A stretch of DNA of 64,000 bases. Source: Haloactinospora alba (GTDB lineage Bacteria; Actinomycetota; Actinomycetes; Streptosporangiales; Streptosporangiaceae). The DNA lies in NCBI RefSeq assembly GCF_006717075.1, contig NZ_VFQC01000001.1, positions 186,001-250,000 on the forward strand, written 5' to 3'. Positions 29,014-39,547 of this stretch are shown here, piece by piece. Positions within the stretch are counted from its first letter, which is position 1, and every line of letters starts with the position of its first letter. The translations under genes were made by a program, and so were the position numbers. A model generated the notes under the pieces. The model was not told the DNA's origin. It ran no database searches and was given only the letters and a program-made list of their open reading frames with translations.

Positions 29014-30624
29014 TTGAGTGTCAGTGGCGAGCGCACCGAGACAGCCGAGGCGGCGGCTCCGCACTTCGCCCCCGGCCCCACGGAACTGGCGCACCTGGAG
29101 CTCATCCTCAACGGCAGCTACCCGCTGTCCGGGTTCATGACCGCCGAGGAGGCCGAGGCGGTGACGCGGGACGGGCACCTGCCGGACGGCACACCCTGGC
29201 CGGTGCCGGTCACCCTGCCCGTCCCGGACGAACTGGCCGACGCCCGGCGGCTCGTACTCACCGACCCGGAGGGCGCGCCGCTGGCCGAACTGGACGTGCG
29301 CCAACGGTGGCGGCCCGAACAGCACGCACAACCCGACCAGACCCCCAGTCACCACCTCGCCGGGGAGGTGTGCTCCGCGAGCCCGGCGATGCACGGCGCG
29401 CTGCGGCAGCTGCGGCTGTCGCCCGACAGCCTCGCCGCCCTCCGGGCCGCAGAGGGCGGCGACGCCGGCCGGCCCCTCCTCGCCGTGGTCACCGACCGCC
29501 CGCTGCACCACAACACCCTGCACCAGATACGGGAGGCGGCGGCGAGCCTCGGAGGCGACCACCCCGCCGACGTGCTCGTCCTCGTCGACGCCCCCATGGA
29601 CAACGAGGGGCTGGCCCCCGCGATCCTTGCGGCGGAACCGCTCCTGCCGCCGCGGAGCAGGTTCGCCGTTACCACCCTCCCGCCGGCGCGCTCCCCCGCG
29701 GGCGGGGCGCTGCCAACTGGGCGGGACGCCCTGCTCGCCGCGCACGTGGCGCGGTCCTACGGCGCCACCAGCGTCCTGCTGAACCGCGGGGAGGACGGCT
29801 CCGCCCACGAGGTGGCGGCCGCGGAGCCCACCTCCCCGGTGGCGGTGCTGCGCCCCTCCGAGTGGCGCTACGACACCCGGGACGGGATGTGGCGCCTGGC
29901 TGGTGAGGTTCCCGAGCAGGCGGCGCGCGAGGAGCCGGCCGACGCCGACATCGCCGAGACGCTCGCCCTCGGCCGGGAACTGCCGTCCTGGTTCACGCCG
30001 GCGCGGGTGGCCACGGAACTGTACCGGCTGCGGCCGCCGCGCACTCGTCGCGGCCTGACCGTGTTCCTCACCGGCCTCTCCGGCTCCGGCAAGTCCACGA
30101 TCGCGCGGGGCGTGGCCGACGGCATCCGCGGCTCCGGGCGCACGGTCACCCTGCTGGACGGCGACATCGTACGGCGGCTTCTGTCCGCGGGCCTCACCTT
30201 CTCCCGCGAGGACCGCGACCTCAACATCCGCAGGATCGGCTACGTGGCCTCCGAGATCACCCGGCACGGCGGCGTGGCCATCTGCGCCCCCATCGCCCCC
30301 TACGCCGCGACCCGTGCCCAGGTGCGCGCTATGGTCGAGGAGAACGGGGACTTCTTCCTGGTCCACGTCGCGACCCCGTTGGACGTGTGCGAGGAGCGTG
30401 ACCGCAAGGGCCTCTACGCCAAGGCGCGCGCCGGCGAGATCCAGGAGTTCACCGGGATCTCCGACCCCTACGAGGAACCCGCCGACGCCGAGCTCGTGCT
30501 GGACACGGCGGGAACCGAGGAGAGCGAGTCCGTCGCCCGGGTGCTGGAGGCGCTGCGCGTCGGCGGCTGGCTACCCGAACCCGAACCGGAACGGAAGACC
30601 ACTGCTGATGACCGACACCACTGA
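29014..30624 (+). CDS. cysC: Sulfate adenylyltransferase-like domain fused to adenylylsulfate (APS) kinase
   Basis: The C-terminal half (about residues 345-525) is a standard APS kinase, which phosphorylates APS to PAPS. It shows the Walker A FLTGLSGSGKSTIARG, LLDGDIVRRLLSAGL, FSREDRDLNIRRIGYVA, CAPIAPYAATR and the KGLYAKARAGEI block. The N-terminal half resembles Sat-type ATP sulfurylase (PLSGFMTAEEAEAV, DGTPWPVPVTL). However, its active-site motifs are changed: the QxRNPxHxxH site reads VTDRPLHHNTLHQ and the GRDHAG site reads NRGEDG. It is therefore probably inactive as a sulfurylase and may be structural or regulatory. TTG 29014 has GGAGG 6 nt upstream. CysDN would supply the APS. Confidence 0.9.
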   Translation: MSVSGERTETAEAAAPHFAPGPTELAHLELILNGSYPLSGFMTAEEAEAVTRDGHLPDGTPWPVPVTLPVPDELADARRLVLTDPEGAPLAELDVRQRWRPEQHAQPDQTPSHHLAGEVCSASPAMHGALRQLRLSPDSLAALRAAEGGDAGRPLLAVVTDRPLHHNTLHQIREAAASLGGDHPADVLVLVDAPMDNEGLAPAILAAEPLLPPRSRFAVTTLPPARSPAGGALPTGRDALLAAHVARSYGATSVLLNRGEDGSAHEVAAAEPTSPVAVLRPSEWRYDTRDGMWRLAGEVPEQAAREEPADADIAETLALGRELPSWFTPARVATELYRLRPPRTRRGLTVFLTGLSGSGKSTIARGVADGIRGSGRTVTLLDGDIVRRLLSAGLTFSREDRDLNIRRIGYVASEITRHGGVAICAPIAPYAATRAQVRAMVEENGDFFLVHVATPLDVCEERDRKGLYAKARAGEIQEFTGISDPYEEPADAELVLDTAGTEESESVARVLEALRVGGWLPEPEPERKTTADDRHH

Positions 30625-31738: not shown

Positions 31739-32890
31739 ACAGACCCCACCCGGCCCGGAACGGTTGGCCGGACTTACCGAGAACGAAACGTGGAGGCAGG
31801 CACTGCGGGACGTCCCGCGCGAGTGGTTCGTGCCCGAGCGGGCGTGGGCGACGCCCATGGGTGCCGCTCCGAGTTATTGGATCGACCGAGCCACCGATCC
31901 CCAGCCGTGGTACGAGGCGGTCTACAGCGACAGCACGATCGTGACCCAGATCGAGGACGGCGGTACCGACCTCACTGAGGAATCGGCTCGGAGCGCGAAC
32001 CGCTTCACCAGTTCCAATTCCGCTCCGAGTAATGTCACCTCCTTCTTAGAGCTTCTCGATACATACGACAAGGACCGAGTGTTAGAGATCGGTACCGGTA
32101 CCGGGTGGACAACCGGTCTGCTCTCGGCCCGGTTGGGCGCGGAGAACATCACTTCCGTGGAGGTGGACGAGCAGGTAGCGAAACAGGCGCGGGTGAATCT
32201 GGAACGCGTTGGATATATGCCGAACCTGATAACAGGTGACGGCGAGAAAGGGCATCCGGGAGGAGCCCCCTTCGACCGGATCCATGTCACATGCGGGGTA
32301 CGGAAGGTGCCCTACACATGGGTGGAACAGACCCGCCCTGGCGGGATTATCGTGCTGCCGTGGATGCCTGGCTTGGGCGGTTATCAGGTAAAGCTCACTG
32401 CTACGAATGACGGAGCCGTGGGACGCTTCACTGGCAACTGCGGTTATATGATGATGCGTTCCCAGCGCCCTACCAACACCCCCATAGCTGACGATGACCG
32501 CGAGTCGCACCCCGGATTGATCCACGCCGCGTCCATTACGCGGGTACGGGATGTCAGATAGCACTCATCGGGACGTTGCCGCGCCTCACCGCAGCAGGCG
32601 GTAGCTCGGCCGACGGAACGTTCCTTCTGGTGCTGTCTGATGGGGGTCTCTCACACGCACTGGTGAAACAACCTTCCACGGATGAACCTGCGACGGTGAC
32701 GCAGCGCGGGCCACGCAACCTATGGGATGAGGCTGAAGAGACCTACTTGAGATGGGTGGCATGGGGCGAGCCGGGCCAAGAGCGGTTTGGACTCACTGTG
32801 GACGCTGACGGCCAGCACGTGTGGCTGGATTCGCCACGCAATCAAGTGCGGAGAGGTATGGGTGATGGGGTCAGCACCGTAAAGAAGTGA
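31731..32890 (+). pseudogene. PCMT-type SAM methyltransferase split by a frameshift
   Basis: The first part (31731-32561, 276 residues) is a protein-L-isoaspartate-O-methyltransferase-like domain. It has the SAM-binding motif RVLEIGTGTGWTTGLLSARL and the later motif PFDRIHVTCGVRKVPYTWVEQTRPGG. The frame then stops. From about 32545 a second frame encodes residues that look like the missing C-terminal part of this family in actinobacteria, including RGPRNLWDEAEETYLRW and QERFGLTVDADGQHVWLDSP. Joining the two needs a shift near 32545-32576. Members of this family usually occur near XRE/DUF397 pairs, as here. Either the gene is decayed or the sequence has an error at this point. Confidence 0.7.
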
Positions 32891-33151: not shown

Positions 33152-33337
33152 TTACAGTCGGCCGGTGCGCACCTCGTCGAGGAACGCCTGCCACTCGGAA
33201 GCGGAGAACGACAGGTGGCCGGCCTGCCGGTTCTGGGTGTCGCGGACAGCGGTCACCGGCCCCTCGGCGACCTCGACACAGTTGTTGTTACTGCCGTTGC
33301 TGTAGCTGGACTTGTGCCACACATGCTGGTTACTCAT
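33152..33337 (-). CDS. DUF397 domain protein
   Basis: DUF397 proteins are small actinobacterial proteins, almost always encoded beside an XRE regulator with a DUF5753 domain. The pair is thought to act like an antagonist-regulator couple. The 61-residue protein has the family pattern WHKSSYSNGSNNNCVEVAEG near the start, then VAVRDT-like TAVRDTQNRQ and the C-terminal FSASEWQAFLDEVRTG. Its start codon overlaps the end of the XRE gene by 8 nt, so the two are translationally coupled. Confidence 0.93.
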   Translation of the reverse strand: MSNQHVWHKSSYSNGSNNNCVEVAEGPVTAVRDTQNRQAGHLSFSASEWQAFLDEVRTGRL

Positions 33338-34145
33338 CTAGCTCTCCCTGTATCTGGCGGAGAAGGTCAACGCTACTGCTGGTCGGCAACGCGTCCGCCT
33401 GAATCGCTGACCACAGCGTGGAGCAGGTGCGGACGTGCTCATCACTGTCGAGGACCACATCGTCCACCACGTGTTCCGCTGTCACCACCATGGGGCGGTC
33501 CGCGAACGCGAACACTCGGAACGGTCCGCACAGCCCCGGTGGCATCGAGAGGTCGGACGGAACGATCTGGAGACGCAGGACGTGTTCATCGATCAGTCTC
33601 AGTAAATGACCAATCTGCCCCTTCATTGTGACCACGCCACCGATGTTGCGCCGTATGACAGTCTCATCCAGCACAACCCACATTAGTGGGCGGTCTGTAT
33701 CCTCCAGCACCCGCTGGCGCTGCAACCGTGAGTCCACCAGTTGGTCAATAGTCGCCGCATCTACGAACGGTCGCATGGCAGCGAACGTGGCACGGGCGTA
33801 ATCAGCGGTCTGCATAAGACCAGGAACCAGAAAATTGTGATATTCGCGTATTTCGTAGGCTAACTGCTCGAAGTCGATGGATGTCCGGGAACCGGTCGGA
33901 TACAGCGTCTGTCCGTTGGCCGACTTCCAGAGCCGTTCGAAGGTCCCGGTAGTCCGGAACAATGCGTCCAGTTGTTGCGCTTGGTCAAACTGCGGACCAC
34001 GCATACCGGACTCCATGTACGAAATCAGGGATGAGGACACCACCAAAGCCTGGGCAACCTGCCCCTGTGACATGGATGTTGAAGTTCGGTGTTTTCGCAG
34101 TTCAGAGCCGAATTTCTGCCAAGTTGGATTGTATCTACGCCCCAT
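33330..34145 (-). CDS. XRE family regulator with DUF5753 domain
   Basis: The 271-residue protein has an N-terminal XRE helix-turn-helix at about residues 10-65 (FGSELRKHRTSTSMSQGQVAQAL, SSLISYMESGMRGP). The rest is the DUF5753 ligand-like domain, seen in EIREYHNFLVPGLMQTADYARA and the middle block VLDETVIRRNIGGVVTMKGQIGHLL. Such regulators are numerous in actinobacteria and include developmental regulators of the BldB/WhiJ system type. ATG 34145 has GGAGG 5 nt upstream. The gene is divergent from the four-gene operon at 34.4 kb and may regulate it. Confidence 0.92.
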   Translation of the reverse strand: MGRRYNPTWQKFGSELRKHRTSTSMSQGQVAQALVVSSSLISYMESGMRGPQFDQAQQLDALFRTTGTFERLWKSANGQTLYPTGSRTSIDFEQLAYEIREYHNFLVPGLMQTADYARATFAAMRPFVDAATIDQLVDSRLQRQRVLEDTDRPLMWVVLDETVIRRNIGGVVTMKGQIGHLLRLIDEHVLRLQIVPSDLSMPPGLCGPFRVFAFADRPMVVTAEHVVDDVVLDSDEHVRTCSTLWSAIQADALPTSSSVDLLRQIQGELDE

Positions 34146-34219
34146 CAGTCCTCCACGCTTGATCAACCATCACAGAACATCACCGCTAGAACACCAAAAT
34201 AAACCGAACGTAAAAGAAA

Positions 34220-35961: not shown

Positions 35962-37602
35962 ATGACGGCTGACGAACGCCCTCTGATACTCGTTCTTGGA
36001 ACCTCCGAACGCGTGGGGTCGAACTGGGTTCTCGACTCCCTGCGACATTCCACCATCCAGCACAACGAACACCTTCGGCAGCAGCTCGGCAGGCAACACC
36101 CACTCGCCCCCTTGACCACAATCAGTGCAACAAGCCCCGCTGTACACGCTCCGCTCGCCGCCTACTGGGTGGAGTCCTTCAAGAGCAGCAAGTACCGCGG
36201 CGGGCGCCACGTCGTCAAAGAGACCAACCTGTATTTCACCGCCGCGGCGCTCCTCGCGCTATTCCCGGACTCACCCGTTGTGGTGCTCTCACGGTCTCCG
36301 CTAGGGGTGGCCAGCTCTTTCACCCGTGGCGCCCTCTGGAAACGGTGGGACTACGGGAACATCTACCGCCATGTTGCGGCCTTGGCACACGAGGACGAAC
36401 ACCGCCGCTGGTCGAGACTCGTACCCGACGACGATCCGTGCCCGCCCGTCGCGCTTACACGGCTGATCACCTTGAACACGGCCCTGCTCGCCGATGCCCT
36501 TGGAGACCGTGAACACGCGCATGTGTCCTACGAAGCTGCCGTACTCGACTGGCGATCCGCCACGCGGCCCTTGGCCGGGCTGGTTGAGGAATTCGGATCG
36601 GCGTCTTCGCTCCCATCAAAGGAGACACCCTCCTGTGACAGCACGTTCGCGACCACCAACCACAAAGACGGTTTGGTCGCGCGTCTGCGCCCCGGAACCG
36701 CCGAGGTGGTGACGTCCGAGACGTCACGCTGTTTGAGTCTGCTCCGCAGCATCGTCGCTCCCGCGTCGTCCAAGAGGGCGGAGCGGTGGCTTGCCGGTGC
36801 CGACTCCTACGCCCTGGCCACCTTCGACAATCCAGAAGCCGCCCCACCGAGACTGACGACCACCATTCGCAAGGCGCGGACCGAACCGGCCTATGTCCCC
36901 TTGGCTCCCCCTCATACCCGGTGGCGGAACCTGCTCGTCTCCAACGCCGAGATGTGTGTCTTCCTTAACGGGCTCACCGACGCGGGCCTGAAGACCACCC
37001 TGCACGGGGTACACATCGTCGCGATCCCCATGCCGCACGAACGCGGCGGCCGACTGCACCCCACCGGCAAGGGGTGGCGAGTGAGCCCCGGATACGAACA
37101 CCATCCGGCCTACTGGATCACCTGGATCGGAGCAGCCGCCTATGCCTTCTGGGAAGGGGCGCGGCTCCCGACCAGCAGCGAGCTGGACGCGCTCACTGCC
37201 GGCGCTCACGCCAGCAACGCCGAATACCAGATGGGAGATGTGACTCCCGTCGATGAACCTGGTTTAGGGCCGAAAGCTGTGCACCACAGAGTCGGCAATC
37301 TTCGAGTGTGGTGCTGCGATGGGCCGGGCCACGGAACGGAGTGGGCGCCCCTAACGCGGTACCGGCACGGAGCCGCATGGAACACACCCGCGTCGCGGGA
37401 GGAGGTGACGAGTCGGCGTTCCCGGCACCTGCTCGGCGCCTCCTGCGGTGTCGGTGTGCGGTTGACCTGTGCATCTTCCACGGGTCCTCGATGTTCGCTT
37501 AACGAGGTAGCCGACCGATTGAGCCGGTGGCTCACCCTGCTAGGCGACCGGACGCGCCCCCTGTCCGAACTCGACCGGGAGGCTATCGCCCTTCTGTCAT
37601 AG
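35962..37602 (+). CDS. Sulfotransferase domain fused to a formylglycine-generating-enzyme (SUMF1)-like domain
   Basis: The N-terminal half (about residues 8-250) looks like a PAPS-dependent sulfotransferase. LVLGTSERVGSNWVLDSLR fits the 5'-phosphosulfate loop, and FPDSPVVVLSRSPLGVASSF fits the 3'-phosphate site with its Arg and Ser. The C-terminal part (about residues 325-505) follows the FGE-sulfatase fold: VSNAEMCVFLNGL near its start, GYEHHPAYWITWIGAAAYAFWEGARLPT in place of the usual HPV.VSW.DA..YA.W...RLPTEAEW, and GNLRVWCCDG in place of GNVWEW. The final LLGASCGVGVRL matches the GFR end. ATG 35962 has GGGAG 9 nt upstream. I know of no described protein with this fusion. PAPS is supplied by genes at 20-31 kb. 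Confidence 0.7.
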   Translation: MTADERPLILVLGTSERVGSNWVLDSLRHSTIQHNEHLRQQLGRQHPLAPLTTISATSPAVHAPLAAYWVESFKSSKYRGGRHVVKETNLYFTAAALLALFPDSPVVVLSRSPLGVASSFTRGALWKRWDYGNIYRHVAALAHEDEHRRWSRLVPDDDPCPPVALTRLITLNTALLADALGDREHAHVSYEAAVLDWRSATRPLAGLVEEFGSASSLPSKETPSCDSTFATTNHKDGLVARLRPGTAEVVTSETSRCLSLLRSIVAPASSKRAERWLAGADSYALATFDNPEAAPPRLTTTIRKARTEPAYVPLAPPHTRWRNLLVSNAEMCVFLNGLTDAGLKTTLHGVHIVAIPMPHERGGRLHPTGKGWRVSPGYEHHPAYWITWIGAAAYAFWEGARLPTSSELDALTAGAHASNAEYQMGDVTPVDEPGLGPKAVHHRVGNLRVWCCDGPGHGTEWAPLTRYRHGAAWNTPASREEVTSRRSRHLLGASCGVGVRLTCASSTGPRCSLNEVADRLSRWLTLLGDRTRPLSELDREAIALLS

Positions 37603-38037
37603 CCCGATAGCCGACTTCGGTCCCATGTAGGAGCCGGCGCCAGGGAAGCCGCCCTCGACCAGCTGGGCGAACCGCTCGCTGAAACCGAGCTGCGAAAGAT
37701 CCTCGGTCTTTACGAATTCCACTCCACGAATCGGGCGCGTATCGATTCCCTCGGAGATCTTACCGAGAGTCCCGCCCACCTTTCGCACCTCGAAAGTCAT
37801 GTGCACCACATGAAGACCTTTTTCCGGAATGATGTGGTCGCACACGTAAAGCAACCGGACGACTTCGACGTCGATTCCGGTTTCCTCCCGCATCTCGCGA
37901 ACGAGGGCATCAGCGAGCGGTTCGCCCTCCTCGACCCGGCCGCCGGGCAGGCTCCACTTGCGCAGCCCGTCGGTGTCCTGGTCCAACAGCAGAACCTGCC
38001 CGTCCTCCACAAGGAAACCCGTCACGCGTATATCCAT
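37597..38037 (-). CDS. NUDIX hydrolase
   Basis: NUDIX enzymes cleave nucleoside diphosphates linked to another moiety. In the 146-residue protein the Nudix box runs from GGRVEEGEPLADALVREM into REETGIDV (about residues 31-56), matching GX5EX7REUXEEXGU. The N-terminal strand (VTGFLVEDGQVLLLDQD) is typical. The substrate cannot be told. Its stop overlaps the end of the convergent sulfotransferase fusion, and its start is only 29 bp from the divergent nucleotidyltransferase gene, so a shared function is plausible. Confidence 0.92.
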   Translation of the reverse strand: MDIRVTGFLVEDGQVLLLDQDTDGLRKWSLPGGRVEEGEPLADALVREMREETGIDVEVVRLLYVCDHIIPEKGLHVVHMTFEVRKVGGTLGKISEGIDTRPIRGVEFVKTEDLSQLGFSERFAQLVEGGFPGAGSYMGPKSAIGL

Positions 38038-38066: not shown

Positions 38067-38855
38067 ATGCGATCGGACCGAGGAAAACAGCATTCAGTAA
38101 TGATCGCCGCCGGAGGGCTGGGAACAAGGAGGGCGGACTGGTTCCGATTCCTGCCAAAAGAATACTTTCCCGTGCATGGGAAACCAGGAATCGCACTGCT
38201 CATGGAAGAAATCGCCGACCTGGGAAACGCGCGAACCGTCATGGTGCACCACCCCTACTACACCCGGTTCGCCGCATGGATCAGCTACGTACTGAACAAG
38301 CCCGACGCGTATGACCAGGTTGCCGACACCGCCACCGAAACGCGGCACTGGCCCAGCGTGGACATGATCCCCCAGTCCGGTACCTACGGTGACATCACGT
38401 CCGTACTCAACGCCGACGACTACCTGAACCGGCCCGCCCAGCTGTATGTCATGTACGCCGACAACCTGTTTCCCAACGCCCGCCCCCTGCTGCACCTGGG
38501 TGAACTGGACGCCGACACAGCGGTGATGGTGCGGCCCTACACACGCGCCGCAGCAACCAAGCGCGGCGTCGTCGTCTGCGACAACGACCGCATGGTTCGC
38601 TTGGTGGAAAAGCCCGACGAGGATACAGCAGCCGTTCTCGAAGCCACCTACGGCTGCGACAACCTCGCGCTCATGACCGGCCGTTCACGGGTCAGTCGCT
38701 CATTCCTGGACTTCCTCCACACCTACCGGCACTCCAGCGGAGAGCCGAAACTATCGCTTGCCTTGTCCACCTACGCCCAGACGGCATCGGTCAGAGTCCG
38801 GCGAGTAGACACTACTGTGACCGATCTTGGGGCGCCCTTCCCGAACGTCGACTGA
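38067..38855 (+). CDS. GalU-like nucleotidyltransferase
   Basis: Sugar-1-phosphate nucleotidyltransferases join a sugar phosphate to a nucleoside triphosphate. The 262-residue protein has the signature AAGGLGTRRADWFRFLPKEYFPV with GKPGIALLMEEI, which matches the GxGTRxxPxTKxxPKExxPV pattern of GalU-type enzymes with a changed spacing. GTYGDITSVLNADDYL and YADNLFPNARPLL correspond to later active-site segments (the latter in place of LGD). AAAGGA precedes ATG 38067 by 8 nt. Its promoter must lie in the 29 bp shared with the NUDIX gene or inside that gene. Confidence 0.85.
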   Translation: MRSDRGKQHSVMIAAGGLGTRRADWFRFLPKEYFPVHGKPGIALLMEEIADLGNARTVMVHHPYYTRFAAWISYVLNKPDAYDQVADTATETRHWPSVDMIPQSGTYGDITSVLNADDYLNRPAQLYVMYADNLFPNARPLLHLGELDADTAVMVRPYTRAAATKRGVVVCDNDRMVRLVEKPDEDTAAVLEATYGCDNLALMTGRSRVSRSFLDFLHTYRHSSGEPKLSLALSTYAQTASVRVRRVDTTVTDLGAPFPNVD

Positions 38856-39200: not shown

Positions 39201-39534
39201 ATGATCCCCGCGCACGCGGGGATGGACCCCGGTTGGCGTTGTATTGCTATTGACCAACCGGATGCTCCCCGCGCACGCGGGGATGGACCCGGGCGTTTCC
39301 GATTCCGGAGACGGTCCCCCAGATGCTCCCCGCGCACGCGGGGATGGACCCATACGGCGCATGCTCACGCAGAGCGACTATTTATGCTCCCCGCGTACGC
39401 GGGGATGGACCGCAACGCTCCGGACAACCTCTGTGGATTGTCACGTGAGCCCCACGCACGTGGGGATGGACCGAGGTACGGGTCAGCCGCACACTGACAC
39501 CGCGGATGAGCCTCACGCACGTGGGGGTAGGTCG
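39201..39534 (+). CRISPR. Type I-E CRISPR array, six 29-bp repeats and five 32-bp spacers
   Basis: Repeats start at 39201, 39262, 39323, 39384, 39445 and 39506, an exact 61-bp period. The consensus contains CTCCCCGCGCACGCGGGG followed by ATGGACC, the type I-E style of actinobacteria, with the hairpin CCCCGCG/CGCGGGG. Spacers occupy 39230-39261, 39291-39322, 39352-39383, 39413-39444 and 39474-39505, each 32 bp. The last two repeats differ from the others, which marks the distal end, so the leader is on the left and transcription runs on the plus strand. No cas gene is present in the window; processing would need Cas proteins encoded elsewhere. Confidence 0.97.
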
Positions 39535-39547
39535 AGGTCAGTTACCT

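Follow-up and report, generated by a model that had tools for sequence, protein, structure and literature searches.

The described proteins closest to the gene product reported here are sulfotransferases on the one hand and proteins of the FGE (SUMF1) fold on the other. FGE itself contains a pair of copper-binding cysteines, the EgtB/SenA-type synthases possess a DinB domain with their iron histidines, and CarF, CalU17, PvdO, and ToxD are FGE-fold proteins of natural-product clusters. Both folds are known, but their joined, conserved architecture is apparently undescribed, as the original prediction had supposed: we found no description in the open-access literature of a sulfotransferase–FGE fusion or of its fixed NUDIX/nucleotidyltransferase partnership, although one may exist elsewhere. 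The words fusion, fused, and bifunctional do not occur in PMC4659905.

The window analyzed here, a stretch of 64,000 nucleotides from Haloactinospora alba, encodes such a fusion protein beside genes for a NUDIX hydrolase and a sugar-phosphate nucleotidyltransferase-like protein. We propose, at a probability of roughly 0.4, that these three genes form a horizontally moving cassette that makes or modifies a nucleotide-activated, sulfonated small molecule, with the FGE-like half of the fusion recognizing the substrate.

The fusion gene and its two halves

The fusion gene and the features within it are as follows (window coordinates):

35962..37602, + strand: sulfotransferase–FGE-like fusion gene, 546 aa, described below by Pfam, homologues, an AlphaFold model, and fold matches
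35974..36804, + strand: predicted PAPS sulfotransferase domain, residues 5-281 (Z 12.1 to CurM 4gbm)
35998..36027, + strand: 5'-phosphosulfate-binding-type loop GTSERVGSNW, residues 13-22 (E16, R17, G19, S20, N21, and W22 invariant in 21/21)
36292..36318, + strand: 3'-phosphate-binding-type motif R111...S119 (both invariant in 21/21, eight apart)
36883..37479, + strand: FGE/SUMF1-fold domain, residues 308-506 (Pfam FGE-sulfatase; fold matches at Z 12-15)
37282..37314, + strand: HH..GN...WC segment with H441, H442, and C451 (invariant columns)
37369..37389, + strand: GAAWNTP motif, residues 470-476, at the place of the FGE copper cysteines (profile alignment, columns)

The uninterrupted 546-residue frame of the original prediction is confirmed, with an ATG at 35962, a TAG at 37600-37602, 546 codons, and zero internal stops, and the sequence motifs quoted in its support are all present in the protein. 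A GTG upstream of this ATG would lengthen the open frame to 611 aa. The ATG matches the start position of the untrimmed G029 homologue in alignment A1, and agreement on the start rests on this homologue, as most rows of alignment A2 were trimmed by hand near this point. The protein is 42-65% identical to 20 homologues and the gene shows dN/dS values of 0.22-0.34 in six homologue pairs, indicating that the frame is not a product of chance. A window frame with sulfotransferase-type and FGE-type halves is confirmed as real.

Pfam searches of the two halves and a structure prediction had been proposed as checks of the original prediction, and both halves of the resulting model match solved structures. 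The AlphaFold model of the fusion, built with 17 aligned sequences as input, has a mean pLDDT of 82.2 and a pTM of 0.85, and the other four models have mean pLDDT values of 63-72. The model was compared with 994 PDB chains using a tool for which models that lack a clear match typically peak at Z 7-8, some mostly helical ones reaching 14; Foldseek was run separately and by itself also gives both the sulfotransferase and the FGE-fold matches. Residues 5-281 are predicted from this model to adopt a PAPS sulfotransferase fold and residues 308-506 an FGE/SUMF1-type fold.

The predicted N-terminal half matched five sulfotransferase entries at Z 11.3-12.1, in agreement with the fold originally proposed for it: the CurM sulfotransferase domain 4gbm (Z 12.1, rmsd 3.9, 207 aligned), 4gox (Z 11.7), SULT1A3 (Z 11.6), and TPST1 and TPST2 (both Z 11.3), with Foldseek E values of 2.3e-4 and 3.5e-4 against sulfotransferases. 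The Pfam profile Sulfotransfer_3 scored 25.6 bits over residues 38-159, slightly below its cut-off of 27, and matches 8 of the 17 members of alignment A3 at E 0.01. The R17-x-G19-S20 loop and the R111/S119 pair are kept in all 21 complete proteins, in which K86 and E87 also never vary. We assign the GTSERVGSNW loop a 5'-phosphosulfate role by analogy with sulfotransferase motifs, and the spacing of R111 and S119 is that of known sulfotransferases; by the same analogy, the invariant residues of this half fit what is expected of a PAPS site.

The C-terminal half scored above the cut-off with Pfam FGE-sulfatase (29.6 bits versus 23.3, residues 375-430), which matches all 17 members of alignment A3 at E 0.01. 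Its fold matches were CarF (Z 14.8), EgtB (13.8), human FGE (13.7), CalU17 (13.7), PvdO (12.3), and ToxD (12.1), and none pointed to a different fold. The copper-binding cysteine pair of FGE is absent from all 21 proteins, which contain no second conserved cysteine beside C451, the only one kept in 21/21. An FGE profile alignment, whose second reference set comprised 17 sequences of mixed EgtB-like and FGE-type proteins, places the invariant T475, within the GAAWNTP motif, and a gap against the two copper-binding cysteines of FGE. Neither the window protein, searched at E 1, nor 17 members searched at E 0.01 gave a DinB match, and scores fell below the NCBIfam equivalog cut-offs for EgtB/SenA-type synthases (19.9 versus 420 and 18.5 versus 360 bits). 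Because the copper cysteines are missing in 21/21 and no DinB domain was found, the FGE- or EgtB-type sulfur or histidine chemistry originally suggested for this half is not supported. Even without the residues on which the known chemistries of this fold depend, the half is strongly constrained, since the histidines H441 and H442, the R361-G-G-R364 stretch, N419, D426, W473-N474-T475-P476, and R488 are all invariant in 21/21.

In the best rival to the substrate-recognition role, the FGE-like half is itself catalytic through a new site (e.g., one using H441, H442, or C451, or a metal bound by them) and performs a further reaction on the substrate of the sulfotransferase half. Invariant polar residues could equally mark a catalytic site, and conservation is slightly higher in the C half than in the N half (mean identities of 0.52 and 0.46 to the window protein). 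However, the ligand sets of both FGE and EgtB are absent, and the alignments show the GN...W element and the cysteine after the W in ordinary FGE-family proteins as well, where they may be structural; we consider this rival doubtful. Its extension to a bifunctional enzyme, in which an FGE fold with a new, cysteine-pair-free site works in sequence with a PAPS sulfotransferase on one nucleotide-activated metabolite made by the nucleotidyltransferase, would define a new class of mobile biosynthetic cassettes for a sulfated signal or antibiotic, and seems quite unlikely. Substrate recognition by the FGE-like half is the role we prefer.

Copies of the fusion in other genomes

A public-genome scan that used two N-half motifs as its key yielded 23 loci; stand-alone C halves or relatives lacking these motifs would escape it. 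The fusion occupies a single frame in 17 loci (L016-L028, L030, L031, L032, and L035, with L029 excepted), is frameshifted, truncated, or internally deleted in five (L029, L033, L034, L036, and L037), and ends at a contig edge in L038. Host names at these loci are Nocardiopsis, Streptomyces, Kitasatospora, Rhizocola, Paractinoplanes, Hamadaea, Winogradskya, Planosporangium, Nonomuraea, Actinomadura, and Fodinicola, together with two metagenome bins. Three Streptomyces plasmids also carry the fusion, complete in two and represented by its N part only in the third, locus L041, where insertion sequences follow it. The public annotation of one plasmid copy reads "SUMF1/EgtB/PvdO family nonheme iron enzyme". 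The fusion therefore recurs in other actinobacteria, a point on which the original prediction had invited a check, with one-frame copies in 17 of 23 loci and two of three plasmids.

The full-length protein was found in three of 60 whole genomes searched and in three of 394 genomes of the class sample, the window's own being counted each time, and ten more genomes match over a short FGE stretch only (E 3e-5 to 6e-4). Across the order, the N domain was matched in 14 of 345 genomes, and 11 of these 14 copies (the window's own included) are complete fusions in one frame. The fusion of G862 lies in two frames with the break within the N half, G903 is missing the first ~175 residues, and G907 retains residues ~225-379 only. 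The order-wide copies partly overlap the scan loci (G013 with L026, G318 with L018). Locus L076 has a NUDIX gene and an interrupted nucleotidyltransferase gene and is devoid of the fusion. A search with the C-terminal domain (E 1e-8) in 396 genomes of the phylum returned the window's own genome only, in a procedure that scored few candidates per genome and may let distant relatives escape. None of 39 pattern matches in viral contigs was confirmed as a relative, and phage records gave none.

These copies bear on whether an artefact of sequencing or gene calling could have joined two genes. Some copies are broken, and nothing else was found in favor of this explanation. All 21 proteins of alignment A2 have the same single-frame fusion, and the breaks of the other copies vary in position, those of L029 and L036 falling inside the sulfotransferase half. 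No intact split pair of two separate genes was seen among the scanned loci and order-wide copies, a result of an N-half-keyed scan from which a stand-alone C half could escape. Within this scope, none of the three results that the original prediction had listed as refuting it was observed. The conservation of single-frame homologues refutes an artefact, to which we assign practically no chance.

The NUDIX and nucleotidyltransferase partners

Two partner genes follow the fusion and a regulator gene precedes it:

37597..38037, − strand: NUDIX hydrolase gene, 146 aa, convergent (Pfam NUDIX 63.2 bits; Nudix box; 3id9)
38067..38855, + strand: sugar-phosphate nucleotidyltransferase-like gene, 262 aa (Pfam NTP_transferase; GalU-like model)
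33330..34166, − strand: divergent XRE/DUF5753 regulator gene, upstream (Pfam; a similar gene lies beside four complete Nocardiopsis copies)

The overlap between the NUDIX and fusion genes is 6 nt in the window and 6-66 nt across 17 tabulated loci. The NUDIX protein has the whole Nudix box (consensus GX5EX7REUXEEXGU), its residues G33, E39, R47, E48, E51, E52, and G54 being invariant in the 14 rows of alignment A5, and the family profile aligns almost end to end with its closest solved chain, 3id9 (E 4e-47). The nucleotidyltransferase scored 34.1 bits with Pfam NTP_transferase (cut-off 21.2), and its model (pLDDT 87.6) matches the UDP-glucose pyrophosphorylase 3juk at Z 23.8; residues P30-K31-E32, D132-N133, E181-K182-P183, and D253 are invariant in the 18 rows of alignment A4. 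It did not reach the NCBIfam galU equivalog cut-off (27.7 versus 326.8 bits), and as this score is far under the cut-off, its sugar or nucleotide may differ from that of GalU. Two loci have longer fusion frames, of 1022 aa in L028 (8902-11970) and 770 aa in L035 (8842-11154), which stay open across the antisense NUDIX gene, that of L028 being in frame with the nucleotidyltransferase; these were considered as three-gene fusions and rejected, as the extra length overlies a recognizable antisense NUDIX.

The original prediction had asked whether the NUDIX and nucleotidyltransferase genes travel with the fusion, and they do. Among 26 further loci (L016-L041), the NUDIX gene adjoins all 19 complete fusions outside the window and the nucleotidyltransferase 18 of them, the exception being L032, where the NUDIX gene lies on the same strand as the fusion and the nucleotidyltransferase is missing. 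All 11 near-full-length order-wide copies, the window's included, have both halves, the NUDIX gene, and the nucleotidyltransferase gene or at least its start. Most copies have the NUDIX gene on the other strand, so the three genes are not one operon. Conversely, relatives of the nucleotidyltransferase (E ~1e-20) in 11 regions (L077-L087) had neither the fusion nor the cassette NUDIX beside them; in L080, two other NUDIX-type genes lie within 5 kb of such a relative.

For 20 loci, L032 and the broken copies being left out, the tree distances of the fusion, NUDIX, and nucleotidyltransferase genes correlate at r 0.87, 0.92, and 0.81, values each reached by 0 of 999 permutations and inflated by host kinship. 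All three genes are under purifying selection; in six pairs, dN/dS is 0.06-0.20 for the NUDIX gene and lies at 0.12-0.37 for the nucleotidyltransferase gene. The GC content of the fusion (65%), NUDIX (61%), and nucleotidyltransferase (62%) genes compares with 70% for the window. The plasmid copies, the patchy presence, and this GC content of 61-65% versus 70% are best read as signs of a mobile cassette, though the gene tree largely follows host groups, so that the patchiness could stem from gene loss as well as from transfer.

A regulator on the opposite strand is found within 2 kb upstream in 13 of the 19 complete copies and in the window. It is of the XRE/DUF5753 kind in L016, L017, L018, L020, and the window, and of a second, putative HTH-type kind, only some members of which have a Pfam helix-turn-helix, in L019, L021, L022, L023, L028, L030, L032, L035, and L039. 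A second, different NUDIX gene lies past the upstream regulator in some copies (L021 6851-7339, L028 6830-7381). The regulators occur across genera, and other neighbors are common mostly to close relatives. In the window, a short CRISPR-like array of six degenerate ~32-nt copies at a fixed 61-nt spacing (39202-39538) lies just downstream of the cassette. A methyltransferase-like frame (31776-32558, + strand) best matches the model of the ATP-grasp peptide maturase system methyltransferase over profile positions 12-257 of 363 (242 bits, under the cut-off of 380); it may be a RiPP gene that is truncated or divergent. A fused ATP-sulfurylase-like/APS-kinase gene 5 kb upstream (29014-30624, + strand) is a possible PAPS source; having no match among the ORFs of L016-L041 (26 loci) or L074-L087 (14 loci), it is a local neighbor and does not belong to the cassette.

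Some of the varying neighbors suggest another role, that of a tailoring or activation module for host-specific pathways (e.g., peptide natural products) in which the nucleotide enzymes only supply or recycle cofactors. Two Streptomyces copies adjoin a row of B12-binding radical SAM, thymidylate-kinase-like, and second NUDIX genes (L024 12004-15484, a region with an extra gene of weak HhH-GPD match, and L039 14939-18479), one Nocardiopsis copy has a radical SAM/SPASM gene immediately 3' of the nucleotidyltransferase (L016 11935-12909, Nocardiopsis chromatogenes), and neighbors other than the regulators mostly differ among genera. On the other hand, the trio is kept intact amid mostly changing neighbors, which makes a self-contained function simpler, and we hold the tailoring role to be unlikely.

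The patchy, plasmid-borne distribution with several decayed copies would also suit a defense or conflict cassette that makes and destroys nucleotide-derived signals. The NUDIX protein matches the PADLOC candidate model PDC-S07 (46.1 bits, E 8.3e-13, residues 5-91), and FGS (FGE-type) domains have been reported from cyanobacterial conflict systems (PMC7159879). The PDC-S07 match, however, covers the general NUDIX region, the fusion and the nucleotidyltransferase have no PADLOC match at E 0.01, and the nucleotidyltransferase has the fold of enzymes acting on sugar 1-phosphates, leaving a defensive role very improbable.

A proposed role and its relation to described systems

The reading we favor remains a cassette for a nucleotide-activated, sulfonated small molecule. 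The nucleotidyltransferase would activate a sugar phosphate (or other phosphate) as an NDP derivative, and the sulfotransferase half, with PAPS as the donor, would sulfonate a hydroxyl or amine of the activated molecule. The FGE-like half, lacking the metal cysteines of FGE, may bind or position the substrate, and the NUDIX enzyme would hydrolyze an activated intermediate or by-product. The two halves may take part in a coupled modification of one substrate, as originally suggested. We favor this reading because of the two-domain fold, the invariant PAPS-type residues, and the partner signatures; because of the partner linkage, the congruent trees, the purifying selection, and the missing FGE cysteines; and because CarF, CalU17, ToxD, and PvdO, from natural-product clusters, are among the fold matches. 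Several observations stand against it. The fixed cassette contains no glycosyltransferase and no transporter, L032 is without the nucleotidyltransferase, and the NUDIX gene is mostly on the opposite strand; in addition, Sulfotransfer_3 is under its cut-off, and the Z of 12 is well above 7-8 but within what some mostly helical models, at up to 14, can reach.

In conclusion, the fusion and its two nucleotide-handling partners point to a pathway, so far undescribed, for a sulfated small molecule, and this compact, mobile actinobacterial gene set may make an unknown sulfated compound. It also offers a test case for use of the FGE fold for something besides cysteine oxidation. Like the CurM/olefin-synthase sulfotransferase domains (4gbm, 4gox) and the TPST/SULT enzymes, the N half has PAPS-type motifs and the same predicted fold; unlike them, the fusion has its own QHNE..RQQ and KETN motifs and an added FGE-like domain, and sequence similarity to them is weak. 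The fusion shares the fold and the Pfam FGE-sulfatase match of FGE (SUMF1) without its copper-binding cysteine pair. EgtB, OvsA, and SenA (sulfoxide, ovoselenol, and selenoneine synthases) are likewise two-part proteins with an FGE-like domain, but the N-terminal half of the fusion is predicted to be of the sulfotransferase fold rather than DinB, and its NCBIfam similarity to SenA and EgtB is weak and far under the cut-offs. CarF, CalU17, PvdO, and ToxD have the FGE-like fold in common with the fusion and are not themselves fused to a sulfotransferase. Among the partners, the nucleotidyltransferase shares fold and catalytic signatures with GalU-type UDP-glucose pyrophosphorylases, though it lies far under the galU cut-off, and the NUDIX protein shares its fold and catalytic signature with 3id9.
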